DNA from: Streptomyces coeruleorubidus
GTDB taxonomy: Bacteria; Actinomycetota; Actinomycetes; Streptomycetales; Streptomycetaceae
Reading direction: 5' to 3'
NCBI RefSeq assembly: GCF_008705135.1
Contig: NZ_CP023694.1
Span: 7,477,001-7,541,000, forward strand
Length of the DNA: 64,000 nucleotides
Positions 31,717 to 52,219 of this stretch are shown piece after piece. A program made the translations under genes and the position numbers. Position 1 is the stretch's first letter; the number at the start of each line of letters is the position of its first letter. The notes under the pieces were generated by a model. That model saw nothing but the letters and a program-made list of their open reading frames with translations, searched no databases and was not told where the DNA came from.

Positions 31717-31752
31717 TTCCAGATCGTAGAAGTTTATTTCCGCAATACGGAA
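31717..31752 (+). promoter_or_regulatory. Tandem operator pair in the gcl promoter
   Basis: Two 15-bp palindromes of the form TTYYR-N5-YRGAA: TTCCA-GATCG-TAGAA (31717-31731) and TTCCG-CAATA-CGGAA (31738-31752), starting 21 bp apart. The same arrangement occurs before hyi. Expected regulator: an IclR-family AllR-like protein. Confidence 0.65.
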
Positions 31753-31810: not shown

Positions 31811-33595
<1,785 letters not shown>

Positions 33596-34983: not shown

Positions 34984-36441
34984 TCAGTCCTCGCGCAGGG
35001 CGCGGACCGCCTCCTCCACGCGACGCCCGTAGTCGGGGTCGGCGGCGTGGAAGTGCGCGAGGTTCTTCTCGATCACGTCGTCGCGGGAGACCTGCGAGAG
35101 GCCGCCGGCGATGTTCGCGACCAGCCGGGACCTCTCCTCGGCGGACATCAGCCGGTACAGCTCACTGGCCTGGAAGAAGTCGTCGTCCTTGGTGTGGAGC
35201 GGGGCCGCGTGGGTGCCCGTGTGGCCGGTCACCGCCAGCGGGGCCGACAGCGGGCGGCCGGTCTCCACCGGGCCGTCGTAGGAGTTCGGCTCGTAGTTCT
35301 TGGCGTACCGGCCCTGGGGGTTGGACGCCATGAGGCCGTCCCGGCCGTAGTTCTCGGCGGTCGTGGCCCTCGGCGCGTTGACGGCGAGCTGCGTGTGGTT
35401 GACGCCCAGGCGGTAGCGGTGGGCGTCCGCGTAGGCGAACAGGCGGCCCTGGAGCATCTTGTCGGGGGAGGGGCCGATGCCCGGCACGAAGTTGTTCGGG
35501 GAGAACGCGGCCTGCTCGACCTCGGCGAAGACGTTGTCCGGGTTGCGGTCCAGCACCAGCCGGCCCACGCGCCGCAGCGGGTAGTCCTGGTGCGGCCAGA
35601 CCTTGGTCACGTCGAACGGGTTGAAGCGGTAGTCGGACGCTTCGGCCGCCGGCATCAGCTGGACGTAGAGCGTCCAGGACGGGTGCACGCCCCGCTCGAT
35701 GGCCTGGAGCAGGTCCGTCTGGTGGGAGTTCGGGTCCTTGCCCGCGAGCTCGGCGGCCTGCTCGCTGCTCAGGCAGCGGATGCCCTGGTTGGTCTTGAAG
35801 TGGTACTTGACGAAGAAGGCCTCGCCCCGGCTGTTCGTCCACTGGTAGGTGTGCGAGCCGTAGCCGTTCATGTGCCGGTACGAGGCCGGGATGCCGCGGT
35901 CGCCCATCAGCCAGGTCACCTGGTGCGTGGCCTCGGGGGAGTGCGCCCAGAAGTCCCAGACGTTGTCCGGTTCCTGACGGCCGGTGAACGGGTCGCGCTT
36001 CTGCGAGTGGATGAAGTCCGGGAACTTGACCGGGTCCTTGATGAAGAACACCGGGGTGTTGTTGCCGACGAGGTCGTAATTACCCTCGGCCGTATAGAAC
36101 TTGACCGCGAAACCGCGCGGGTCGCGCACCGCGTCCGCGCCGCCGAGGCTGTCGGCCACGGTCGAGAAGCGCAGGAAGACCTCGGTCCGCTTGCCGACCT
36201 GGCCGAGAAAGTCGGCCTGGGTGAAGGCGGTGACGTCGTCGGTCACCTCGAAGTGGCCGTAGGCGCCGGACCCCCGGGCGTGCACCACACGCTCCGGGAT
36301 GCGCTCGCGGTTGAAGCGCGCGAGCTTCTCCAGCAGGTGCTGGTCCTGGAGCAGGAGCGGGCCGCCGACGCCGGCGGTGGCGGAGTTCTGGTTGTCGGCG
36401 ACGGGGGCGCCGGACTCGGTGGTGAGCACGCGCTGCGACAT
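34984..36441 (-). CDS. katA: Monofunctional haem catalase (clade 3 type)
   Basis: Cytoplasmic haem enzyme dismutating H2O2, 485 aa, small-subunit class. Distal His54 in '[13 protein letters not shown]', Asn in '[11 protein letters not shown]', and the proximal haem tyrosine in '[15 protein letters not shown]'. It lies between gcl and the hyi-glxR genes and shares an identical promoter palindrome with the uricase operon; uricase releases H2O2, so co-expression makes sense. A perfect inverted repeat GCGGAAA-N4-TTTCCGC (36466-36483) lies in the leader. Confidence 0.96.
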
Positions 36442-36465: not shown

Positions 36466-36483
36466 GCGGAAAAACCTTTCCGC
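36466..36483 (-). promoter_or_regulatory. Inverted repeat in the katA leader
   Basis: GCGGAAA-AACC-TTTCCGC, a perfect 7-bp palindrome between the predicted transcription start and the katA ATG. Candidate operator or small hairpin. Confidence 0.5.
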
Positions 36484-36490
36484 TTTGTGG

Positions 36491-36531
36491 AGCCTAGGGT
36501 CGGGGCGATCGGAGCGTCAACAGTTTGTTGA
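36491..36531 (-). promoter_or_regulatory. katA promoter with TCAACA-N3-TGTTGA operator on the -35
   Basis: On the reverse strand, TTGACG (36520-36515) and TAGGCT (36496-36491) are 18 bp apart, a good vegetative promoter. The palindrome 36517-36531 overlaps the -35 and is identical to the one in the uraD promoter. Confidence 0.7.
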
Positions 36532-36658
36532 AGCGGTGGGCATGGGTGGGTCCGGGCGGCGCCGCCCCTTTGGGCGCGACAGGACAGGTGTCAGCGGCGG
36601 CGCCGCCCGGGGTAGGAGGGACCCTCGGGCCATGAGGGCCGACGAGGGTCTGCGACGG

Positions 36659-37552
36659 TCAGATCCGGGCGCCGGAGAGCCGCTCCACGGCCCGCAGCAG
36701 CGCCGAGTGGTCCAGGCCTCCGTCGCCCTGCGCGCGCAGGGACGCGACCAGCTGGGCGACCACGGCGCCGACGGGCAGGGCCGCGCCGACGTTGCGGGCG
36801 GCGTCCGTGACGATGCCCATGTCCTTGTGGTGCAGGTCGATCCGGAAGCCCGGCTTGAAGTCCCGGCCGAGGAAGTTGTCCTTCTTGCGGGTCAGTACGG
36901 TCGAGCCCGCGAGGCCGCCGCCCAGGACGTCCAGGGCCGCCTTCAGGTCCACGCCGGACTTCTCCAGGAAGACCACGGCCTCGGCGCACGCCTGGATGTT
37001 CACGGCGACGATCAGCTGGTTGGCGGCCTTCACGGTCTGGCCGGAGCCGTGCGGGCCGCACAGCACGATGGTCTTGCCCAGCACCTCGAAGATCGGCTCG
37101 GCCTGGTCGAAGTCGGCCTGCTCGCCGCCGACCATGATCGACAGCACGGCCTCGATCGCACCGGCCTCACCGCCGGACACCGGGGCGTCCAGGACGCGGA
37201 TGCCCTTGTCCTTCGCCGCCTTCGCCAGGTCGACCGAGGTCTGCGGGGTGATCGAGGACATGTCGATCAGGAGGGCGCCGGACCCGGCGTTCTCCAGGAT
37301 GCCGTCGGGGCCGTAGGCGATGGCCTCGACCTGCGGGGAGGCGGGCACCATCGTGATGACGACGTCGGCGTCCCGCACGGCCTCGGCGATCGAACCGGCG
37401 GCCGTGCCACCGGCGGCGGCGAGGCGGTCCAGCTTCTCCCGCTCCAGGGTGAATCCGGTGACGTCGTAGCCCGCCTTGATCAGGTTCTCGGACATGGGGG
37501 AGCCCATGATGCCGAGGCCGATCCAGGCGATCTTGGGCAGTGGGTTGCTCAT
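36659..37552 (-). CDS. glxR: Tartronate semialdehyde reductase (2-hydroxy-3-oxopropionate reductase)
   Basis: Beta-hydroxyacid dehydrogenase reducing tartronate semialdehyde to D-glycerate with NAD(P)H. 297 aa. Rossmann motif 'IGLGIMGSPMSENLIKAG', substrate-binding 'DAPVSGGEAGA', catalytic Lys175 in 'GSGQTVKAANQ' and 'KDMGIVTDAARN'. It is 22 bases downstream of hyi and cotranscribed. It completes the glyoxylate-to-glycerate branch started by Gcl. Confidence 0.94.
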   Translation of the reverse strand: MSNPLPKIAWIGLGIMGSPMSENLIKAGYDVTGFTLEREKLDRLAAAGGTAAGSIAEAVRDADVVITMVPASPQVEAIAYGPDGILENAGSGALLIDMSSITPQTSVDLAKAAKDKGIRVLDAPVSGGEAGAIEAVLSIMVGGEQADFDQAEPIFEVLGKTIVLCGPHGSGQTVKAANQLIVAVNIQACAEAVVFLEKSGVDLKAALDVLGGGLAGSTVLTRKKDNFLGRDFKPGFRIDLHHKDMGIVTDAARNVGAALPVGAVVAQLVASLRAQGDGGLDHSALLRAVERLSGARI

Positions 37553-37574
37553 GGTGTGCCTTTCGGTGCGGGGG

Positions 37575-38396
37575 TCAGCGGGGCAGCCAGTCGAAGGCCT
37601 CGGCGCTGGGGCGGTCGCCCGGCTTGTACTCGAGGCCGACCCAGCCGTCGTAACCCGCCTTGTTCAGCCGGTCGAGGAGGTCTTCGAGGGGCAGCGAGCC
37701 CGTCCCGGGGGCGCCGCGGCCGGGGTTGTCGGCGATCTGGACGTGGCCGGTCTTCGCGGCGTACCGCTCGATCACCTGCGGCAGGTCCTCGCCGTTCATG
37801 GACAGGTGGTAGAGGTCCATGAGGAAGCGGGCGTTGCCCAGTCCCGTCGTGTCGTTGACCTTGTCGACGACGCCGACGGCGGCCGGTGCCGACACCAGCG
37901 GATACGCCGGCGACTCGATCTGGTTCAGCGCCTCGATCAGCAGGATCGCGCCGATCCGGTCGGCGGCCCGGGCCGCGAGCGCCAGGTTCTCCAGCGCGAG
38001 CGCGTCCTGCTCGGCCGGGTCCGTGCCCTCGACGCGGTTGCCGTACAGGGCGTTGAGCGCCGTGCAGCCCAGGGAGGCGGCGAAGCCGGCCGCCACGTCG
38101 ATGTTGGCGCGGAACCTCTCCGACTCCTCGCCCGGGATCGACAGGGCGCCACGGTCGGGGCCGGGCAGTTGACCGGCGTAGAAGTTGAGGCCCGTGAGCT
38201 GGACGCCGGCGTCCTCGACGGCCTTCTTCAGCGCGTCGAGCTCCGACTGTTCAGGGGTGGGCGAGTCGACCCAGGGCCACCACAGCTCGACCGCCGTGAA
38301 GCCGGCCGCGGCGGCGGCCGCGGGACGCTCCAGGAGCGGGAGTTCCGTGAAGAGGATCGACAGGTTGACGTTGAAGCGCTGGTCTGCGAATCCCAT
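37575..38396 (-). CDS. hyi: Hydroxypyruvate isomerase family protein
   Basis: 273-aa TIM-barrel protein of the Hyi/sugar-phosphate-isomerase family, interconverting hydroxypyruvate and tartronate semialdehyde. Features include 'RFNVNLSILFTELPLLER', 'AAAGFTAVELWWPW', metal ligands in 'LLIEALNQIESPAY', 'FLMDLYHLSMNGED' and 'HVQIADNPGR', and a final 'VGLEYKPG'. First gene of hyi-glxR. Its promoter carries the same paired operator as gcl. Confidence 0.93.
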   Translation of the reverse strand: MGFADQRFNVNLSILFTELPLLERPAAAAAAGFTAVELWWPWVDSPTPEQSELDALKKAVEDAGVQLTGLNFYAGQLPGPDRGALSIPGEESERFRANIDVAAGFAASLGCTALNALYGNRVEGTDPAEQDALALENLALAARAADRIGAILLIEALNQIESPAYPLVSAPAAVGVVDKVNDTTGLGNARFLMDLYHLSMNGEDLPQVIERYAAKTGHVQIADNPGRGAPGTGSLPLEDLLDRLNKAGYDGWVGLEYKPGDRPSAEAFDWLPR

Positions 38397-38419
38397 CGGG
38401 CCGCGCTCCCTTCCGCTAG

Positions 38420-38455
38420 TTTCGCATTATGGAAGTTGCTTTCTGCTTACCGGAA
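38420..38455 (-). promoter_or_regulatory. Tandem operator pair in the hyi-glxR promoter
   Basis: TTTCG-CATTA-TGGAA (38420-38434) and TTCTG-CTTAC-CGGAA (38441-38455), start-to-start 21 bp, as at gcl. On the reverse strand a -10-like CATAAT (38431-38426) and a -35-like TTCCGG (38455-38450) lie inside the two sites, 18 bp apart. Confidence 0.65.
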
Positions 38456-38606
38456 GACTGCCGCCGGGCGTCGTGGCTTGTCAAGGGGCGGGAGCTGCGT
38501 TGGGTCGTGATCCCGTGGCCTGGACATGTGTGAGGTCCACCGTCCTGGGCGGCGCGAGGTCGCGGCTCGGCGGGAGAGTGACGGAGGCCGGCCTTTCGGC
38601 GCTGAG

Positions 38607-38635
38607 CAGGAGGGACGCGACTCGCGTCCCTCCTG
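38607..38635 (+). other. Hairpin upstream of the protease gene
   Basis: CAGGAGGGACGCGA (38607-38620) is repeated in inverted form at 38622-38635. With a loop of about 7 nt it leaves an 11-bp stem ending 27 bases before the TTG start. It could be a transcription attenuator or a 5'-UTR stabiliser. Confidence 0.55.
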
Positions 38636-38662
38636 TCTCATGTTCCTCTGGGGGGGACTCCT

Positions 38663-40522
38663 TTGATCACGACACCGTCCGGCGGCCGTCACAGACGCCG
38701 GATACGCATCGCCCTGCCCGTCGTCGCCGCCGGCGTCGCCGCGGCCGTCGCCGCCGCGCTGATGACCTCATCCGCCGGTGCGGCCACCGCCGTGCCGAAC
38801 CCGACGGTCGAGCCGGTCATCGGCTCGCCCTCGCTCCCCACCCTGGAAAAGCGCATCGCGGGCGCCCTCGCCGGCGACGACACCCCGGGGCGGACGACCG
38901 AGAAGTCGTCGCTCAGCTCCGGCACGAGCACGTCGGGCATCGACCCGAAGATCATCGGTGGCAGCGAGACCACCATCAGCACGGCCCCGTGGATGGCCCA
39001 GCTCTGGTACCACGACGACAGGAGCACCCCCGAGGCCGACGACGACGTGAGCTTCTTCTGCGGTGGCGCGGTCGTGGCACCGACGAAGATCCTTACCGCC
39101 GCCCACTGCCTCAGGCACGACAACAGGAACTACGACTGGCAGGCCCACGGCGCCGTCGTCACGGGTACCGCTCAACTGCCCACCACCGACTCCACCGGCA
39201 CCACCGACCTGCACGGCGGCCAGGCCACGGCCGTGCTGCGCCAGTGGTGGCAATCGGGGTACGACCCGGTGGACAGGGAGGTGGGGAGGTACGAGAGCGA
39301 CCTCGGCATGCTCACCCTGGCCGTCCCGGTCAAGGCCACCCCGATCCGCATGGTCGCCCACGGCGACACCGCCTCGTACGCCGCCGGCACCCAGGCCAAG
39401 GTCTACGGCTGGGGCCGTACCAGCTCCACCAGCCAGGACCTGTCCCAGACGCTGCGGACGGCCACGCTGACCCTGCGCTCCGACAGCACCTGCGCCGGCG
39501 TCTACGACGTGGCCTACGTCCCGGGGCGCATGGTCTGCGCGGGCACGCAGAGCGGGAGCGACACCGGTACCAGCGCGGCGTGCAACGGAGACTCCGGCGG
39601 CCCGCTCGTGGTGGGCGGCAGGATCGCCGGAGTGGTCTCCTGGGGCAGGAACTGCGTGGAGAAGGGCTACTACAGCGTCTTCACCAGAGTGAGTGCCTAC
39701 GCCGGCTCCGCCTGCAGGCAGATCGACGACACGAACCTGAGCACCTTCAACGGCAGGGCCGACGGAAAGGCCGACATCTTCGTCCGGGAGTCCGCCACGA
39801 AGACCGGCTACGAGAAGGACTCCAACGGCAGCTCCTTCGGCGCCCGCGCCTCCTGGGGCAACTGGAGCGGCGTCAACCTGGTCCTTCAGACGGACCTCAA
39901 CCGGGACGGCTACCAGGACCTGATCTACCGGGTCAGCTCCACCGGTGACGTGTACTGGGAACACTTCGTGCTCAACAGCGCCCGCACGGGCGGCTCGTGG
40001 ACCGACACGAAGATCGCCACCGGCTGGAAGACCCGTACCCGGATCATCGTGCCGGGCGACGTCACCGGCGACTACCTGCCCGACCTGCTGTCGGTGGACT
40101 CCGGCGGGACCATGTGGATCTACCCGGGCAAGGGCAACGGCACCTTCGGCTCGCGCTTCTCGGTCCGCACCGGCTGGAACCAGTACAACTCCGTGCGCGG
40201 CCACGGCGACTTCACCGGTGACGGCAGAGCCGATCTGCTCGCCCGCCAGTCCAGCACCGGCGACCTGTACCTGTACAAGGCCACCGGCAAGGCCGGCTCC
40301 GAGGCCCTCTCCTCCCGGATCAAGGTGCGCAGCGCCTGGACCGGCTACAACGCCTTCGACGCGGTCGGCGACATCAGCGGTGACGGCAACGCCGACTTCC
40401 TGGCCCGCACCCCCGGCGGCACGCTCTACCTCTACAAGGGCACCGGGAAGGCGACCTCCGAGATCTTCGCTCCTCGGGTCTCGGTCGGCACCGGTTTCCA
40501 GCAGTACGACATCTGGGGCTGA
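38663..40522 (+). CDS. Secreted trypsin-like serine protease with FG-GAP/VCBS repeats
   Basis: 619 aa. TTG start with a G-rich ribosome binding site and a twin-basic signal peptide ('GGRHRRRIRIALPVV...'). S1 protease domain with His148 (TAAHC), Asp213 (ESDLGML) and Ser311 (GDSGGP), mature start near 'IIGG'. After ~350 residues comes a C-terminal set of FG-GAP/VCBS repeats ('DLNRDGYQDLIYR', 'DVTGDYLPDLLSV', 'DFTGDGRADLLAR', 'DISGDGNADFLAR'), with Ca-binding Asp/Gly motifs that form a beta-propeller. Extracellular; the propeller probably binds a surface or polymer. Divergent from hyi, sharing the 266-bp gap. Confidence 0.93.
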   Translation: MITTPSGGRHRRRIRIALPVVAAGVAAAVAAALMTSSAGAATAVPNPTVEPVIGSPSLPTLEKRIAGALAGDDTPGRTTEKSSLSSGTSTSGIDPKIIGGSETTISTAPWMAQLWYHDDRSTPEADDDVSFFCGGAVVAPTKILTAAHCLRHDNRNYDWQAHGAVVTGTAQLPTTDSTGTTDLHGGQATAVLRQWWQSGYDPVDREVGRYESDLGMLTLAVPVKATPIRMVAHGDTASYAAGTQAKVYGWGRTSSTSQDLSQTLRTATLTLRSDSTCAGVYDVAYVPGRMVCAGTQSGSDTGTSAACNGDSGGPLVVGGRIAGVVSWGRNCVEKGYYSVFTRVSAYAGSACRQIDDTNLSTFNGRADGKADIFVRESATKTGYEKDSNGSSFGARASWGNWSGVNLVLQTDLNRDGYQDLIYRVSSTGDVYWEHFVLNSARTGGSWTDTKIATGWKTRTRIIVPGDVTGDYLPDLLSVDSGGTMWIYPGKGNGTFGSRFSVRTGWNQYNSVRGHGDFTGDGRADLLARQSSTGDLYLYKATGKAGSEALSSRIKVRSAWTGYNAFDAVGDISGDGNADFLARTPGGTLYLYKGTGKATSEIFAPRVSVGTGFQQYDIWG

Positions 40523-40562
40523 AACCGCAGGTGAGCGAGGCTCACCCCGCCGGTAACGGTCA

Positions 40563-40608
40563 CACACGGCGCCCATCGCCGCCCGCGGTGGGCGCTGGGC
40601 GCCGTGTG
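40563..40608 (+). terminator. Terminator after the protease gene
   Basis: Perfect 13-bp outer arms 40563-40575 and 40596-40608, with further inner pairing. Confidence 0.88.
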
Positions 40609-40770
40609 CCCAGCCCTCCCCTTCCCGGCCACGACTCCCGGCGGTGGAGGACGATGGAGACCGATGGAGGACGGGTGCCCGCGCGCGGAACGCGGAGTGC
40701 CCGCGCAGCCGGTCCGGTCCGCCCCGGGGTCGGCTAGGGTCGCACAGGTCACAACGGTTCTGGGGGCAGT

Positions 40771-41022
40771 ATGCGACTGAGAGTGGAGTTCACCACCGAG
40801 CCCTTCGACCTCGATGAGGCGCCCGCGCACGCGGTGGTCGCCCGCGAGGTCGTGGAGGCCGCCGAACTGGACGCAGTGGACGTGGGCCCGTTCGGCAACA
40901 CCGCCGAGGGCGGCGCCGACGCGGTGCTCACCGCCGTGGACGCCCTGCTCCGCAAGACCCTGGAGGCGGGCGCCACCCGGGTCTCGCTCCAGGTCAACGT
41001 GATCGAGGAGGGCGAGGCATGA
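40771..41022 (+). CDS. Thiamine-binding (MTH1187/YkoF-like, PF01910) small protein
   Basis: 83 aa, ferredoxin-like fold of the MTH1187 family. 'VDVGPFGNTAEGGADAVLTAV' and 'TLEAGATRVSLQVNVIEEGE' match the family's G-x-G-T-x-x-EG and final strand. These proteins bind thiamine or a related ligand; enzymatic role not known. The stop overlaps the next gene by ATGA. A thiamine link would fit the ThDP-dependent Gcl nearby, but that is inference. Confidence 0.75.
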   Translation: MRLRVEFTTEPFDLDEAPAHAVVAREVVEAAELDAVDVGPFGNTAEGGADAVLTAVDALLRKTLEAGATRVSLQVNVIEEGEA

Positions 41023-41387
41023 GCGGCGCCGGGGACGAGCCGTTCATCGCGGCGGTGAAGCCCCTGGTCGACGCCATGGGCGGCGAGATGATCCCGCCCG
41101 ACGAGGCAGGCCCCGACGACGTCGTCCTGTCCTGGGAGGGCACCGACGCCGTCGCCGTACGGCTGCCGCAGCTCGCCGACTCCCTCGACCACATCCTCGC
41201 CGCCATGGAGCGCCGCAAGGGCATGCCGCTGGCCGACCTGGACCGCAAGGCCAAGCAGGAGGTCGTACGGATACTCGAGGCGCGCGGCGCCTTCTCCGTA
41301 CGGCACGGGGTGGAGACCGTGGCGAGCGCCCTGGGCGTCAGCCGCTTCACCGTCTACAACTACCTCAACCGCGAGAAGGGCACCTGA
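41019..41387 (+). CDS. Small HTH protein (DauR/YheO-type C-terminal HTH)
   Basis: 122 aa. The C-terminal 50 residues ('KQEVVRILEARGAFSVRHG', 'VASALGVSRFTVYNYLNRE') match the HTH of the DauR/YheO family, where the N-terminal half would normally be a PAS-like sensor; here it is a short 60-residue module. Co-translated with the thiamine-binding-like protein. Upstream of uraD but separated by 160 bp with its own promoter, so it is a candidate regulator of the uricase operon. Confidence 0.78.
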   Translation: MSGAGDEPFIAAVKPLVDAMGGEMIPPDEAGPDDVVLSWEGTDAVAVRLPQLADSLDHILAAMERRKGMPLADLDRKAKQEVVRILEARGAFSVRHGVETVASALGVSRFTVYNYLNREKGT

Positions 41388-41438
41388 CCGGGCCCATGCC
41401 CTGACCGGGCTCATGCCCGGTTTCGCCGCCTCGCCGGG

Positions 41439-41453
41439 TTTCGACACACGGAA
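41439..41453 (+). promoter_or_regulatory. Single TTTCG-ACACA-CGGAA operator upstream of uraD
   Basis: Same 15-bp palindrome type as at gcl and hyi, here as one copy 14 bp upstream of the uraD -35. Confidence 0.6.
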
Positions 41454-41456
41454 TTT

Positions 41457-41497
41457 TCAACAAACTGTTGACGTGCTGTCGCGGGAGGGCGTTAGCT
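41457..41497 (+). promoter_or_regulatory. uraD promoter with TCAACA-N3-TGTTGA operator on the -35
   Basis: TTGACG (41468-41473) and TTAGCT (41492-41497) are 18 bp apart. The palindrome at 41457-41471 overlaps the -35 and matches that of katA exactly in 15 bases (reverse complement). Confidence 0.7.
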
Positions 41498-41547
41498 ATC
41501 GGCACGCCCGTTCAGCACGAAGGCCGTACCCGGCCACGGAGGCTCCC

Positions 41548-42057
41548 GTGACTTCCACTTCCACGCCGCCGGGCCTGGCCCGGTTCAACGCCCTCGAGGA
41601 GCACGCGGCCTTCACCGCGCTCCACGAGGCGTGCGCCTCCACGGCGTGGGCGAAGCGGCTGCTCGCCGCCCGTCCCTACGCCACCCCCGAGGCGCTGTAC
41701 GCCGCGAGCGACGCCGCCATGGCGGAGCTGACGGCGCAGGACCTCGCGGAGGCGATGGCCGGCCACCCGCCCATCGGCCGCCCGAAACCCGGCGACCCGA
41801 CCTCGGCCAGGGAGCAGCGCGGCATGGCCGGCGCCTCCGACGCACTCAAGGCCGAGATGCTGGAGCTGAACCTCGCCTACCAGGAGAAGTTCGGCCACGT
41901 CTTCCTGATCTGCGCCACCGGCCGGACCGGCGAGCAGATGCGGGACGCGGTCAGGGAGCGGATCGGCAACACGCCGGAGCGGGAGCGGGAGATCGTCCGC
42001 ACCGAACTGGGGAAGATCAACCGCATCCGCCTGGCCCGACTCGTCGAAGAGGACTGA
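41548..42057 (+). CDS. uraD: OHCU decarboxylase
   Basis: 2-oxo-4-hydroxy-4-carboxy-5-ureidoimidazoline decarboxylase, third step from urate to (S)-allantoin. 169 aa. 'FNALEEHAAFTALHEACAST', then 'GHPPIGRPKPGD' with the catalytic His and 'SAREQRGMAGAS', and 'FGHVFLICATGRTGEQM'. GTG 41548 has GGAGG (41538-41542) and falls downstream of the predicted promoter; the longer open frame does not. First gene of uraD-uraH-uox. Confidence 0.94.
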   Translation: MTSTSTPPGLARFNALEEHAAFTALHEACASTAWAKRLLAARPYATPEALYAASDAAMAELTAQDLAEAMAGHPPIGRPKPGDPTSAREQRGMAGASDALKAEMLELNLAYQEKFGHVFLICATGRTGEQMRDAVRERIGNTPEREREIVRTELGKINRIRLARLVEED

Positions 42058-42064
42058 CAGCAGC

Positions 42065-42460
42065 ATGAGCACCTCCGCCACCGCGTCCGTGTCCACGCAC
42101 ATCCTGGACACCAGCGCCGGCCGCCCCGCCGAGGGCGTCGCCGTCCAGCTCTCCGCCCGCAGCGGGCGCGCGGCCCACTGGCAGGCGCTCGGCGGCTCCG
42201 CGACCGACGCGGACGGCCGGTGCAAGGACCTCCCGGCCCTGCCGGAGGGGACCACCCAGGTACGGCTCGACTTCGCGGTGGAGCCGTACTTCGAGAAGAA
42301 GCAAGCCGATGCGCAGCAGGACGCCCCCGCGAATCGGGACAGCGGCGCCGGGGTGTTCTTCCCGGAGGTGGCGATCACGTTCGCCGTCGTACCGGGCGAG
42401 CACTACCACGTACCGCTGCTGCTCAACCCGTTCGGCTACTCCGTATACCGAGGGAGCTAG
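42065..42460 (+). CDS. uraH: 5-Hydroxyisourate hydrolase (transthyretin-like)
   Basis: Hydrolyses 5-hydroxyisourate to OHCU. 131 aa. The N-terminal 'STHILDTSAGRPAEGV', catalytic His in 'EHYHVPLLLNPFGYS', and the diagnostic C-terminal 'YRGS' are all present. 7 bases after uraD and 6 before the uricase gene. Confidence 0.95.
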   Translation: MSTSATASVSTHILDTSAGRPAEGVAVQLSARSGRAAHWQALGGSATDADGRCKDLPALPEGTTQVRLDFAVEPYFEKKQADAQQDAPANRDSGAGVFFPEVAITFAVVPGEHYHVPLLLNPFGYSVYRGS

Positions 42461-42466
42461 CTACTC

Positions 42467-43390
42467 ATGCCCACCATTCTGGGACAGAACCAGTACGGCA
42501 AGGCCGAGAACCGAGTCGTCAAGATCACGCGGGACGGCGCCACCCACCACATCAAGGACCTGAACGTCTCCGTGTCGCTGAGCGGCGACATGGAAGAGGT
42601 CCACTACTCCGGCTCGAACGCCAACGTCCTGCCCACCGACACCACCAAGAACACGGTGTACGCGTTCGCCAAGGAGCACGGCATCGAGTCCGCCGAGCAG
42701 TTCGGCATCCACCTCGCCCGTCACTTCGTCACCAGCCAGGAGCCGATCCACCGGGCCCGGATCCGCATCGAGGAGTACGCCTGGGAGCGGATCGAGGCCT
42801 CCGACGCCAACTCGCGGTTCATCGGCGCCGACGAGGTCAAGCACTCCTTCGTACGCAAGGGCCAGGAGACCCGGCTCACCCAGATCACCTACGACGGCTC
42901 GTCGTGGGAGGTGATCTCGGGTCTGAAGGACCTCGTCGTGATGAACTCGACCAACTCCGAGTTCTGGGGCTACGTCAAGGACAAGTACACGACGCTGAAG
43001 GAGGCCTACGACCGCATCCTGGCCACCCAGGTCTCCGGCCGCTGGCGGTTCAACTGGACCGACGACGACCAGCGCATGCCCAAGTGGGAGAAGTCCTACG
43101 AGCAGACGAAGAAGCACATGCTCCAGGCCTTCGCCGAGACGTACTCGCTCTCGCTCCAGCAGACGATGTACCAGATGGGCGCGCGGATCATCGACAACCG
43201 CAGCGAGATCGACGAGGTCCGCTTCTCCCTCCCGAACAAGCACCACTTCCTGGTCGACCTGGAGCCGTTCGGGCTGAAGAACGACAACGAGGTGTACTAC
43301 GCCGCCGACCGCCCCTACGGCCTGATCGAGGCGACGATCCTGCGGGACGGCTGCGAGGCGAGGATCCCCGTGGACCTGACCAACCTCTGA
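42467..43390 (+). CDS. uox: Uricase (urate oxidase, factor-independent)
   Basis: Oxidises urate with O2 to 5-hydroxyisourate and H2O2. 307 aa, tunnelling-fold tetramer. 'NVLPTDTTKNTVYAFAKEHG' carries the catalytic Thr and 'RRF'-type partners ('VSGRWRFNW'); 'NKHHFLVDLEPFGLKNDNEV' contains the His/Asn of the peroxo hole region. Last gene of the operon before a hairpin. H2O2 release links it to katA. Confidence 0.96.
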   Translation: MPTILGQNQYGKAENRVVKITRDGATHHIKDLNVSVSLSGDMEEVHYSGSNANVLPTDTTKNTVYAFAKEHGIESAEQFGIHLARHFVTSQEPIHRARIRIEEYAWERIEASDANSRFIGADEVKHSFVRKGQETRLTQITYDGSSWEVISGLKDLVVMNSTNSEFWGYVKDKYTTLKEAYDRILATQVSGRWRFNWTDDDQRMPKWEKSYEQTKKHMLQAFAETYSLSLQQTMYQMGARIIDNRSEIDEVRFSLPNKHHFLVDLEPFGLKNDNEVYYAADRPYGLIEATILRDGCEARIPVDLTNL

Positions 43391-43453: not shown

Positions 43454-43510
43454 CACTCAAACTCCCAGGGTCCTGCCGTGCCCCCTCCAACCCAGCGCAA
43501 AGGACGAACC

Positions 43511-44890
43511 ATGGCAGCAGCCCGGCGCATCGTCATCGAGAACTGTGCGATCGCGACCGTCGACGCCGACGACACCGAGTACGCCTCCGGGCACGTCGTC
43601 CTCGCCGGCAACCGCATCGAGTCGGTCGGCGCGGGCAAAGCCCCCGAGGGCCTGGAGAACGTCGTACGCCGTATCGACGCCTCCGGTCACCTCGTCACCC
43701 CCGGACTGATCAACACCCACCACCACTTCTACCAGTGGATCACCCGGGGTCTGGCCACGGACCACAACCTCTTCGACTGGCTGGTCGCGCTGTATCCCGT
43801 CTGGGCCCGCATCGACGAGCCGATGGTGCGCGCGGCGGCCCGGGGCTCGCTCGCGATGATGGCCCGCGGCGGCGTCACCACCGCCATGGACCACCACTAC
43901 GTCTTCCCGCAGGGCTCCGGCGACCTGTCCGGCGCGATCATCGGCGCCGCCCGCGACATGGGCGTCCGCTTCACCCTCGCCCGCGGCTCCATGGACCGCA
44001 GCGAGAAGGACGGCGGCCTGCCCCCGGACTTCGCCGTCGAGACCCTCGACGGGGCGCTGGCCGCCACCGAGGACACCGTCCGGCGGCACCACGACTCCTC
44101 CTTCGACGCCATGACCCAGGTCGCCGTCGCGCCCTGCTCGCCCTTCTCCGTCTCCACCGAACTGATGCGGGACGGCGCCCAGCTCGCCCGCCGCCTCGGC
44201 GTACGGCTCCACACCCACGGCTCGGAGACCGTGGAGGAGGAGAAGTTCTGCCACGAACTGTTCGGCATGGGACCGACCGACTACTTCGAGTCCACCGGCT
44301 GGCTCGGCGAGGACGTGTGGATGGCGCACTGCGTCCACATGAACGACTCCGACATCGCCGCCTTCGCCCGCACGAGGACCGGCGTCGCGCACTGCCCGTC
44401 GTCCAACGCCCGCCTCGCGGCCGGTATCGCCCGCGTCCCCGACATGCTCGCGGCCGGCGTCCCGGTCGGCCTCGGCGTCGACGGCACCGCCTCCAACGAG
44501 TCCGGCGAACTCCACACCGAGCTGCGCAACGCCCTCCTCATCAACCGACTCGGCGCGCACAAGGAGGCCGCCCTGAACGCCCGCCAGGCGCTGCGCCTCG
44601 GCACGTACGGCGGCGCCCAGGTGCTGGGCCGGGCGGCGGAGACCGGCTCCCTGGAGCCGGGCAAGCTCGCCGACCTGGTCCTGTGGAAGCTGGACACGCT
44701 CGCCCACGCCTCCATCGCCGACCCGGTGACCGCCCTGGTCTTCGGCGCGGCGGCCCCGGTCACCGCCTCCTTCGTGGACGGCCGGCAGATCGTCGAGGAC
44801 GGGCGGCTGCTCACGGCCGACGAGGACGCCATCGCCCGCTCCACGCGGGACGAGGCCCAGCGGCTGGCGAGGATCGCCGCGCAGGGCTGA
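43511..44890 (+). CDS. 8-Oxoguanine deaminase / guanine-deaminase-like amidohydrolase
   Basis: 459-aa amidohydrolase (cog0402 group). Metal-binding 'GLINTHHHFYQ', 'LHTHGSE', 'AHCVHMND' and the catalytic Asp in 'VGLGVDGTASNE'. The HxH context and 'GLATDHNLFDWL' fit 8-oxoguanine deaminases, which make urate from 8-oxoguanine and fit directly before uricase. Chlorohydrolase-like or guanine deaminase activity is the alternative. ATG 43511 has AAGGA upstream. Same strand as uox and the permease. Confidence 0.87.
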   Translation: MAAARRIVIENCAIATVDADDTEYASGHVVLAGNRIESVGAGKAPEGLENVVRRIDASGHLVTPGLINTHHHFYQWITRGLATDHNLFDWLVALYPVWARIDEPMVRAAARGSLAMMARGGVTTAMDHHYVFPQGSGDLSGAIIGAARDMGVRFTLARGSMDRSEKDGGLPPDFAVETLDGALAATEDTVRRHHDSSFDAMTQVAVAPCSPFSVSTELMRDGAQLARRLGVRLHTHGSETVEEEKFCHELFGMGPTDYFESTGWLGEDVWMAHCVHMNDSDIAAFARTRTGVAHCPSSNARLAAGIARVPDMLAAGVPVGLGVDGTASNESGELHTELRNALLINRLGAHKEAALNARQALRLGTYGGAQVLGRAAETGSLEPGKLADLVLWKLDTLAHASIADPVTALVFGAAAPVTASFVDGRQIVEDGRLLTADEDAIARSTRDEAQRLARIAAQG

Positions 44891-50604: not shown

Positions 50605-52101
50605 TCAGGAAAGGGGGTTGGGCAGTTCCGCCCACTGGTCCCCGGCCGTCTGCGGCGAGAGCCGCATCAGCGTCAGCGCCTTGGTGGGCAGCGGGTCCGC
50701 GCGCAGCGCCGCGAGGCCCGGAGTGCGGGGCAGCTCCCGTACGGCCGTCTCCAGCGCCGCCGTGAGCGCCGCCCCCGACCCCGCCGTGCCGGCCAGCGCT
50801 CCCGCCACCAGCGAGCCGAACAGCTTGCGCCGGAGCGTGCGTTCGTCGTCCGTGACCATGCGGGCGGGCAGGTCGGGCACCGCGATGCCGTGCCGGGCGA
50901 GACGGGCCGGGCTGACGCGGATGTCGGCCAGGTCGCGGTAGACCAGCCGCAGCGGATCGCCCGCGGGCGACAGGATCACCAGGAGGTTCTGGCCGTGCGC
51001 CTCCAGGGCCACGCCCAGCTCCAGCAGCCGCAGACCGACGGTGAGGGCGAGGCGCGCGAAGCCCGCCAGCCAGGCGGGGGAGCGGGGCAGTTCGGTGGTG
51101 GCGAGCGCCGCCACGGGCAGGACCCGTTCGCCGTCCCTCGCGTAGGCCTCCGGCGGCTCCCGCAGAACGGCCGCGAAGTCGGGGGAGCCGGCCGCCGCCG
51201 CGCCCAGGGTGCGGGTCACGTGCAGAAGCCCGTCGGTGTGTGCCGCCGGCGTCTCGGCGAACTCCGACAGCACCGCGGACGCCGCGACCGAGGCCAGCGA
51301 GATGTCCCGCACCGACGACGTCAGCCGGGCACTGAGCGAGGTCTTGACGTGCGACCCCCCGGGCAGCGCCAGCGTCCGCAGCGCCATCAGGGGATGCCCG
51401 GCGCGCCGCTCCTCGCACACCCGCTTCAGCACGTGCGCCGCCTGCCACGGGTGCACCGGCAGCACCACCCGCCCCCCGTCCCGCAGATCCCGCGGCCACG
51501 CGCCCGTCACCAGGCACTCCTCCGCCCGCACCGGCACCAGCCCCAGCTCCACCACCGGCCGGTGCTCGGGCCCGTAGGCGAGCTGCTCGGCCACCGAGAA
51601 ACCGGGCCGGGACCGGCAGGTGGGGTGGAACGGATGCCCGTCGACGATCCGCTGCTCCCACTCCCAGTCGTGCTCCGGCCACCCGTCCGTGACGCGCCCC
51701 TCCTGCCCCGCCCTCGACAGCGCCAACGAGGCGCCGCTGTGCGCGAGTTCGGCGGCGAAGGACGCGGAGTGCGGTACGGCGAGGTCCGTCACCAGCCGGG
51801 CCGGATCGTCGTACTCCGCCTCGTCGAGCCGCAGGACGGTGACGTACGCGCCGGTCGCGTACGGATCCGGCCGCGGGCCGTGCAGCCGGCGGCCGTCGGA
51901 CAGGTGCAGCGTCAGCCCGTCCCCGCCCTGCTCACGGCGGGTGACCCAGGGCAGCGGATCGTGGGCGAGACCGCGCCACAGACGGGACAGCACGGCCGCC
52001 CGGGCACCGGGCACTTCCGCCTCGTACCGCGGCAGGAGACCGGGCCGTACGACGGCCAGTTCGTCGGCGACCTCGGCCTCGGCGGTGGGGGAACGGTGCA
52101 C
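50605..52101 (-). CDS. IucA/IucC-family NIS siderophore synthetase
   Basis: 498 aa. NRPS-independent siderophore synthetase, ATP-dependent carboxylate-amine ligase. Motifs: 'HPFHPTCRSRPGFS' (with Arg/Cys where many members have HxK), 'PVHPWQ', 'HVKTSLSARLTSSVRDIS', 'ALEAHGQNLLV' and 'YRDLADI'. GTG 52101 is chosen because GAGGAG (52109-52114) precedes it; a GTG at 52134 lacks one. A second synthetase is divergently transcribed at 52220. No amine decarboxylase, N-hydroxylase or acyltransferase gene lies within the window. Product unknown. Confidence 0.9.
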   Translation of the reverse strand: MHRSPTAEAEVADELAVVRPGLLPRYEAEVPGARAAVLSRLWRGLAHDPLPWVTRREQGGDGLTLHLSDGRRLHGPRPDPYATGAYVTVLRLDEAEYDDPARLVTDLAVPHSASFAAELAHSGASLALSRAGQEGRVTDGWPEHDWEWEQRIVDGHPFHPTCRSRPGFSVAEQLAYGPEHRPVVELGLVPVRAEECLVTGAWPRDLRDGGRVVLPVHPWQAAHVLKRVCEERRAGHPLMALRTLALPGGSHVKTSLSARLTSSVRDISLASVAASAVLSEFAETPAAHTDGLLHVTRTLGAAAAGSPDFAAVLREPPEAYARDGERVLPVAALATTELPRSPAWLAGFARLALTVGLRLLELGVALEAHGQNLLVILSPAGDPLRLVYRDLADIRVSPARLARHGIAVPDLPARMVTDDERTLRRKLFGSLVAGALAGTAGSGAALTAALETAVRELPRTPGLAALRADPLPTKALTLMRLSPQTAGDQWAELPNPLS

Positions 52102-52219
52102 GGGCGGGCTCCTCGGGTACGAATAGGGCGTCACGGCGGGATGACGACGGCACGCATACTGATCATCTCCGCCCGGAAGTCCGGAAATCCTTCAAGGACC
52201 GCAGGGAACGAGTGGAAGC

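Follow-up and report, generated by a model that had tools for sequence, protein, structure and literature searches.

The katA and uraD promoters and their shared operator

The window analyzed here, a stretch of 64,000 nucleotides from Streptomyces coeruleorubidus (contig NZ_CP023694.1, positions 7,477,001 to 7,541,000), carries a gene for a monofunctional catalase, katA (34984-36441, minus strand; PF00199, E = 1e-187), and, on the plus strand, an operon composed of uraD for an OHCU decarboxylase (41548-42057; PF09349, TIGR03180), uraH for a hydroxyisourate hydrolase (42065-42460; PF00576, TIGR02962), and the gene for uricase (42467-43390; PF01014, TIGR03383). An earlier note on this DNA had drawn attention to an exact 15-base match lying on the -35 boxes of both promoters, about 5 kb apart and on opposite strands, and our analysis bore out the match and its placement alike. 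A scan of the window located the palindrome TCAACA-N3-TGTTGA, without mismatch, at 36517-36531 and 41457-41471. When each site is read in the orientation of its gene the identity extends to 18 base pairs (bp), with TTCAACAAACTGTTGACG present at katA (36515-36532, minus strand) and at the uraD-uraH-uricase operon (41456-41473, plus strand). The last six bases of this sequence, TTGACG, are the -35 box of both promoters (36515-36520 and 41468-41473, respectively).

The katA promoter is clear, as TTGACG is followed after an 18-bp spacer by the -10 box TAGGCT (36491-36496, minus strand), and CTAGGCT is conserved in the relatives. The -10 region of the uraD promoter, TTAGCTA (41492-41498, plus strand), can be read as TTAGCT after a spacer of 18 bp or as TAGCTA after one of 19, and in other species the spacer can be one base shorter. 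The common 18-bp spacing that had been proposed for the two promoters thus holds for katA and is plausible for uraD.

Dinucleotide shuffles of the window gave an expectation of 0.18 matches with two or fewer mismatches, against the two exact matches observed. The 9.34-Mb genome has only three exact copies of TCAACA-N3-TGTTGA, where base composition predicts about 0.03. The third copy was rejected as a regulon member, as it sits within a MarR-type coding sequence.

To follow the site beyond this genome we used 80 Streptomyces uraD loci, obtained from one scan, and 61 whole Streptomyces genomes. The operator was found upstream of uraD in all 80 loci, mostly 63-79 bp before the start codon, and in every catalase promoter of these loci except that of L098, which had no match. 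One base is changed at the catalase promoters of L082 and L122, and several others (L061, L084, L090, and L101) have a second tandem copy. Within 1.55 Mb of these loci there were 121 exact matches, each of them at uraD or catalase (0.005 expected from base composition), and the operator 16-mer was present in 58 of the 61 genomes. The three central bases vary (AAG or AAC at uraD) while the arms are constant, as an operator should behave. A lack of conservation in other Streptomyces, which the earlier note had named as the outcome that would speak against its proposal, was therefore not what we found: the site is conserved genus-wide.

TTGAC is frequent in -35 boxes, and the identity of the two promoters might be attributed to chance or merely to a common -35 hexamer. 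This explanation, however, does not account for the arm to the left of the -35 box, which is invariant across the 80 uraD promoters, nor for the genome-wide and genus-wide counts, in which the reversed pattern that served as control occurred in none of the 61 genomes. We rejected a chance origin on the basis of this conservation and give it practically no credence, and, judged on sequence, we regard the operator and the regulon it defines as secure.

A thiamine-binding-fold/HTH_22 gene pair as candidate reader

Two small plus-strand genes immediately precede uraD. The first encodes a protein of 83 residues with a predicted thiamine-binding fold (40771-41022; PF01910 family) and the second an HTH_22 protein of 122 residues (41019-41387; PF13309, E = 1e-20, above the cut-off), and the start codon of the second overlaps the stop codon of the first. 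We propose them as the ligand-binding and DNA-binding halves, respectively, of the regulator that reads the operator. The score of the small protein against PF01910 is 24.8 bits, 0.1 bit under the cut-off of 24.9; nevertheless, all 23 of its orthologues that were tested matched the family (E up to 0.1). Its structural model has the beta-alpha-beta-beta-alpha-beta fold of the MTH1187/YkoF type (predicted local distance difference test score, pLDDT, of 89), and all 14 of the matches to it in the PDB below E = 0.001 are DUF77/MTH1187/TM0486 proteins or unnamed structural-genomics members of that family. In the second protein the HTH_22 domain occupies residues 56-117 and is the sole Pfam domain found.

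The two genes are adjacent in 79 of the 80 Streptomyces loci, usually with the stop-start overlap; the single locus without the pair, L060, ends at a contig end. In a genome from another family of the same class, G042, the sensor and HTH_22 portions are fused into one protein of 190 residues, encoded beside a uricase operator, and the fusion scores well above the PF01910 cut-off.

Among 197 genomes of the host's class, an HTH_22 orthologue (E < 1e-20) was identified in 18, namely 17 Streptomyces and G042, and the 16-mer was present in all 18, compared with 15 of the 179 genomes without the orthologue (Fisher p = 7e-17, uncorrected for phylogeny). Three genomes provide contrasts that go beyond genus membership alone. 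Two Streptomyces lack both the HTH_22 orthologue and the site, G134 having kept uricase and AllR (86% identity), the IclR-family protein known to repress the allantoin pathway in Streptomyces, and G179 having kept AllR (82% identity); G042, outside Streptomyces, has the fused gene and three sites. We infer from these contrasts that the site is predicted by the HTH_22 pair and not by the presence of AllR.

Regulon, neighboring genes, and a second operator at katA

The region surrounding the two promoters is rich in related genes. Two minus-strand genes assigned by NCBIfam, hyi (37575-38396) and glxR (36659-37552), are located upstream of katA, and gcl (TIGR01504) is at 31814-33595 on the plus strand. 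An 8-oxoguanine deaminase-like amidohydrolase (43478-44890, plus strand; NF006055, above the cut-off) is encoded 3' of uricase on the same strand, and genes for allantoinase, allantoicase, and malate synthase, with an IclR gene taken as allR, follow about 30-37 kb further along. From this gene content we conclude that this region of the genome encodes the route by which urate is converted to glyoxylate and tartronate semialdehyde. An assignment of 38768-40576 as glyoxylate carboligase was rejected, gcl being the gene named above; a trypsin-like protease with FG-GAP repeats is encoded there instead (38663-40522, plus strand), between hyi and the regulator gene pair. This gene may be an insertion, because the sequence 5' of the pair resembles the hyi promoter region in some other Streptomyces. 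Elsewhere in the window, an IucA/IucC-type siderophore synthetase with an FhuF-like domain is encoded at 50605-52134 (minus strand).

Several additional promoters carry the operator. It is found upstream of the allantoinase gene in Streptomyces, in this genome as TTCAACAGAACGTTGAA with one mismatch (C1:7553802), and in several Streptomyces upstream of a DUF6986 gene near etfBA (C1:1106051-1107352; L282 2052-3353), where this genome has a weaker site. The product of the DUF6986 gene is HpcH/HpaI aldolase-like and may act in glyoxylate metabolism, and the gene is part of the purine cluster in G042. In some Streptomyces the urease genes are preceded by the operator (L208, L217, and L185, near locus position 1501), sites that would link the release of urea from purines to the same switch. 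There was no TTCAACA-N3-TGTTGA site at gcl, hyi, or malate synthase in this genome. G042 has exact matches upstream of uricase, where the site again lies on TTGACG, of xanthine dehydrogenase, and of a transporter gene pair (DUF3311/SSS). The purine-degradation cluster of that genome (L279 3804-18165) includes the DUF6986 gene, the fused sensor/HTH_22 regulator, uricase, and two permeases, one of them fused to an OHCU decarboxylase domain, with hyi-, glxR-, and gcl-like genes in a row. Based on this set of targets, including those of G042, the regulon appears to be one of purine catabolism with catalase attached and not a general peroxide response, and the sequence data support well the designation of TTCAACA-N3-TGTTGAA as the operator of a purine/urate-catabolism regulon.

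One further target is of a different kind. In many Streptomyces (L165, L169, L170, L194, and others, at about locus position 1501) cydA, for cytochrome bd, is preceded by TTCAACA-N3-TGTTGAA, which stands ahead of a palindrome, TTGTGAATGTGAACGCGTTCACAAG, resembling a Rex site. We did not find a site within three mismatches at cydA in S. coeruleorubidus, and so rejected the gene as a member of the regulon in this genome; either cydA is a clade-specific member or the motif is common to a related regulator.

The katA promoter has a second palindrome, of the IclR type, with GCGGAAAAACCTTTCCGC at 36466-36483 matching GCGGAAA-N4-TTTCCGC without mismatch. With up to three mismatches this palindrome is present in 39 of 41 catalase-type promoters, compared with about 1% of random segments. 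Its sequence is similar to the A/T-rich group among the boxes of the IclR family (PMC8222616). Similar palindromes lie upstream of gcl (31726-31743, three mismatches) and of hyi-glxR (38429-38446, four mismatches, weak alone), with weaker GGAAA-N4-TTTCC palindromes also at malate synthase and in the gap between allR and allantoinase, and sequences similar to the IclR-type palindrome occur at the uricase and transporter genes of G042. Going by its sequence, the palindrome at katA is probably the box of AllR, which would tie katA also to the later allantoate and glyoxylate steps.

A proposed purine-responsive switch, its alternatives, and known systems

Uricase yields one hydrogen peroxide (H2O2) per urate. 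We think it rather likely that the adjacent thiamine-fold/HTH_22 pair reads the purine/urate operator, represses both the uricase operon and katA, and is released by a purine ligand. The HTH_22 protein would be the DNA-binding subunit and the thiamine-binding-fold protein the ligand-binding subunit. As the site covers the -35 box, repression by exclusion is suggested, in that protein bound there would block RNA polymerase from the uricase operon and from a dedicated catalase. Binding of a purine intermediate to the sensor half would then release the operators, so that uricase, its helper enzymes, allantoinase, and catalase would be made together and the H2O2 of uricase removed while urate is burnt. 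The ligand is expected to be an early purine intermediate, with urate as first guess, because uricase is where the regulon begins in this genome and because in G042 it extends up to xanthine dehydrogenase. The identity of the binding protein and that of the ligand we put forward as hypotheses with good support, and repression as the probable consequence of where the site lies.

Several observations weigh against this model. A response to urate alone would not explain why cydA is a target in many species. In some species the cydA site is upstream of the promoter and not on it, and the allantoinase site is close to the start codon, such that blocking of the -35 box explains these two sites poorly. 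A PDB structure search with the HTH_22 model returned no significant match. The fold of the small protein is not by itself predictive of the ligand, which need not be thiamine. The operator was absent from the 79 regions preceding the gene pair, L054 alone having a near match with two mismatches, and autoregulation of the pair through the same operator was rejected for this reason. Finally, the co-occurrence comes mostly from one genus and is uncorrected for kinship, and the contrasts that decide it are three genomes.

The operator could instead be read by AllR, in which case the sites described here would represent the AllR regulon at further promoters. In favor of AllR, allR adjoins allantoinase, which has the site, and AllR was reported by Navone and colleagues in 2015 to repress the allantoin genes of S. 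coelicolor. However, the AllR orthologues kept in G134 and G179 are not accompanied by the site, and gcl, hyi, and malate synthase lack it but have the different, IclR-like palindrome; co-occurrence thus does not favor AllR, and we consider it unlikely to be the reader. A peroxide- or redox-sensing repressor of the Fur, MarR, or TetR type, encoded elsewhere and inducing catalase and uricase under oxidative stress, would account for the presence of catalase and, in many species, cydA among the targets. RosR of Corynebacterium glutamicum uses TTGTTGA/TCAACAA half-sites, which count for such a reading, but their orientation is opposite to that of the site described here. The other targets are mostly purine-catabolic, up to and including xanthine dehydrogenase in G042, and in S. 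coelicolor RNA-seq the uricase operon fell to 0.29-0.41-fold under oxidative stress (PMC4991794), which argues against a peroxide signal and leaves such a repressor a quite unlikely reader. The earlier note had suggested that one regulator, sensing urate or peroxide, controls catalase and uricase jointly; conservation across Streptomyces strongly supports the joint control, while the targets and the RNA-seq data speak against the peroxide sensor. The site might also be read by some other regulator that responds to urate and has its gene elsewhere, such as a member of the HucR/PecS MarR family, which would leave the pair with another role; in Deinococcus, uricase is under the control of urate sensors of the MarR type (PMC5487221). 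The uricase promoter, however, has no MarR gene beside it, the genes there being the PF01910/PF13309 pair, and it is this pair that tracks the sites across genomes, which leaves such a regulator quite unlikely.

If the thiamine-fold/HTH_22 pair is the reader, it would add the thiamine-binding/DUF77 fold to the sensors of transcription factors, where we know of no description of it, give a function to a gene listed as a putative transposase in one S. coelicolor study (SCO6208, if the orthologue), and provide a new purine sensor for biosensing. We also put forward, tentatively and as less than probable, a broader proposal: a new class of bacterial regulator, composed of a thiamine-fold sensor and a separate HTH_22 subunit, the two forming a single protein in one or more other actinobacteria. 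Such a regulator would respond to a purine, for example urate, and govern uricase together with its own catalase as one detoxification unit, with an AllR-type second input at catalase. The logic of a substrate-induced catabolic operon is already known. A common operator raising catalase with uricase, ahead of the peroxide, would constitute a feed-forward detoxification circuit, kept across a large genus of antibiotic producers. In the literature searched, mostly without subscription journals, we found no description of this combination of targets or of a split thiamine-fold/HTH_22 regulator, and no paper on an HTH_22 regulator of uricase.

The closest known systems each share part of this arrangement. 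The AllR regulon of S. coelicolor concerns the same pathway and an adjacent part of the genome, with a repressor of allantoin genes whose counterpart here is encoded beside allantoinase, and katA probably carries an AllR box as well; the TTCAACA site, however, is another palindrome at other genes, and its presence in a genome is not tied to that of AllR. HucR of Deinococcus radiodurans, a urate-responsive MarR-family repressor encoded beside uricase (PMC5487221), resembles our candidate, a putative repressor that likewise neighbors uricase and for which release by urate is proposed, whereas the candidate is a thiamine-binding-fold/HTH_22 pair with catalase as an additional target. Regulators of the YheO/Cj1387c type (PAS_6 plus HTH_22) have the HTH_22 DNA-binding domain in common with the pair, and for Cj1387c a connection has been described with the gene of a small protein next to it, the level of which is raised in the Cj1387c mutant (PMC4519771); Pfam found no PAS_6 in the protein described here, the partner of which is a separate thiamine-binding-fold protein. 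The small protein itself shares its fold and Pfam family with the MTH1187/TM0486/YkoF (DUF77) proteins, but is shorter, shares about 20% identity with the members of known structure, and works in a proposed pair with, or in G042 as part of, a DNA-binding protein.

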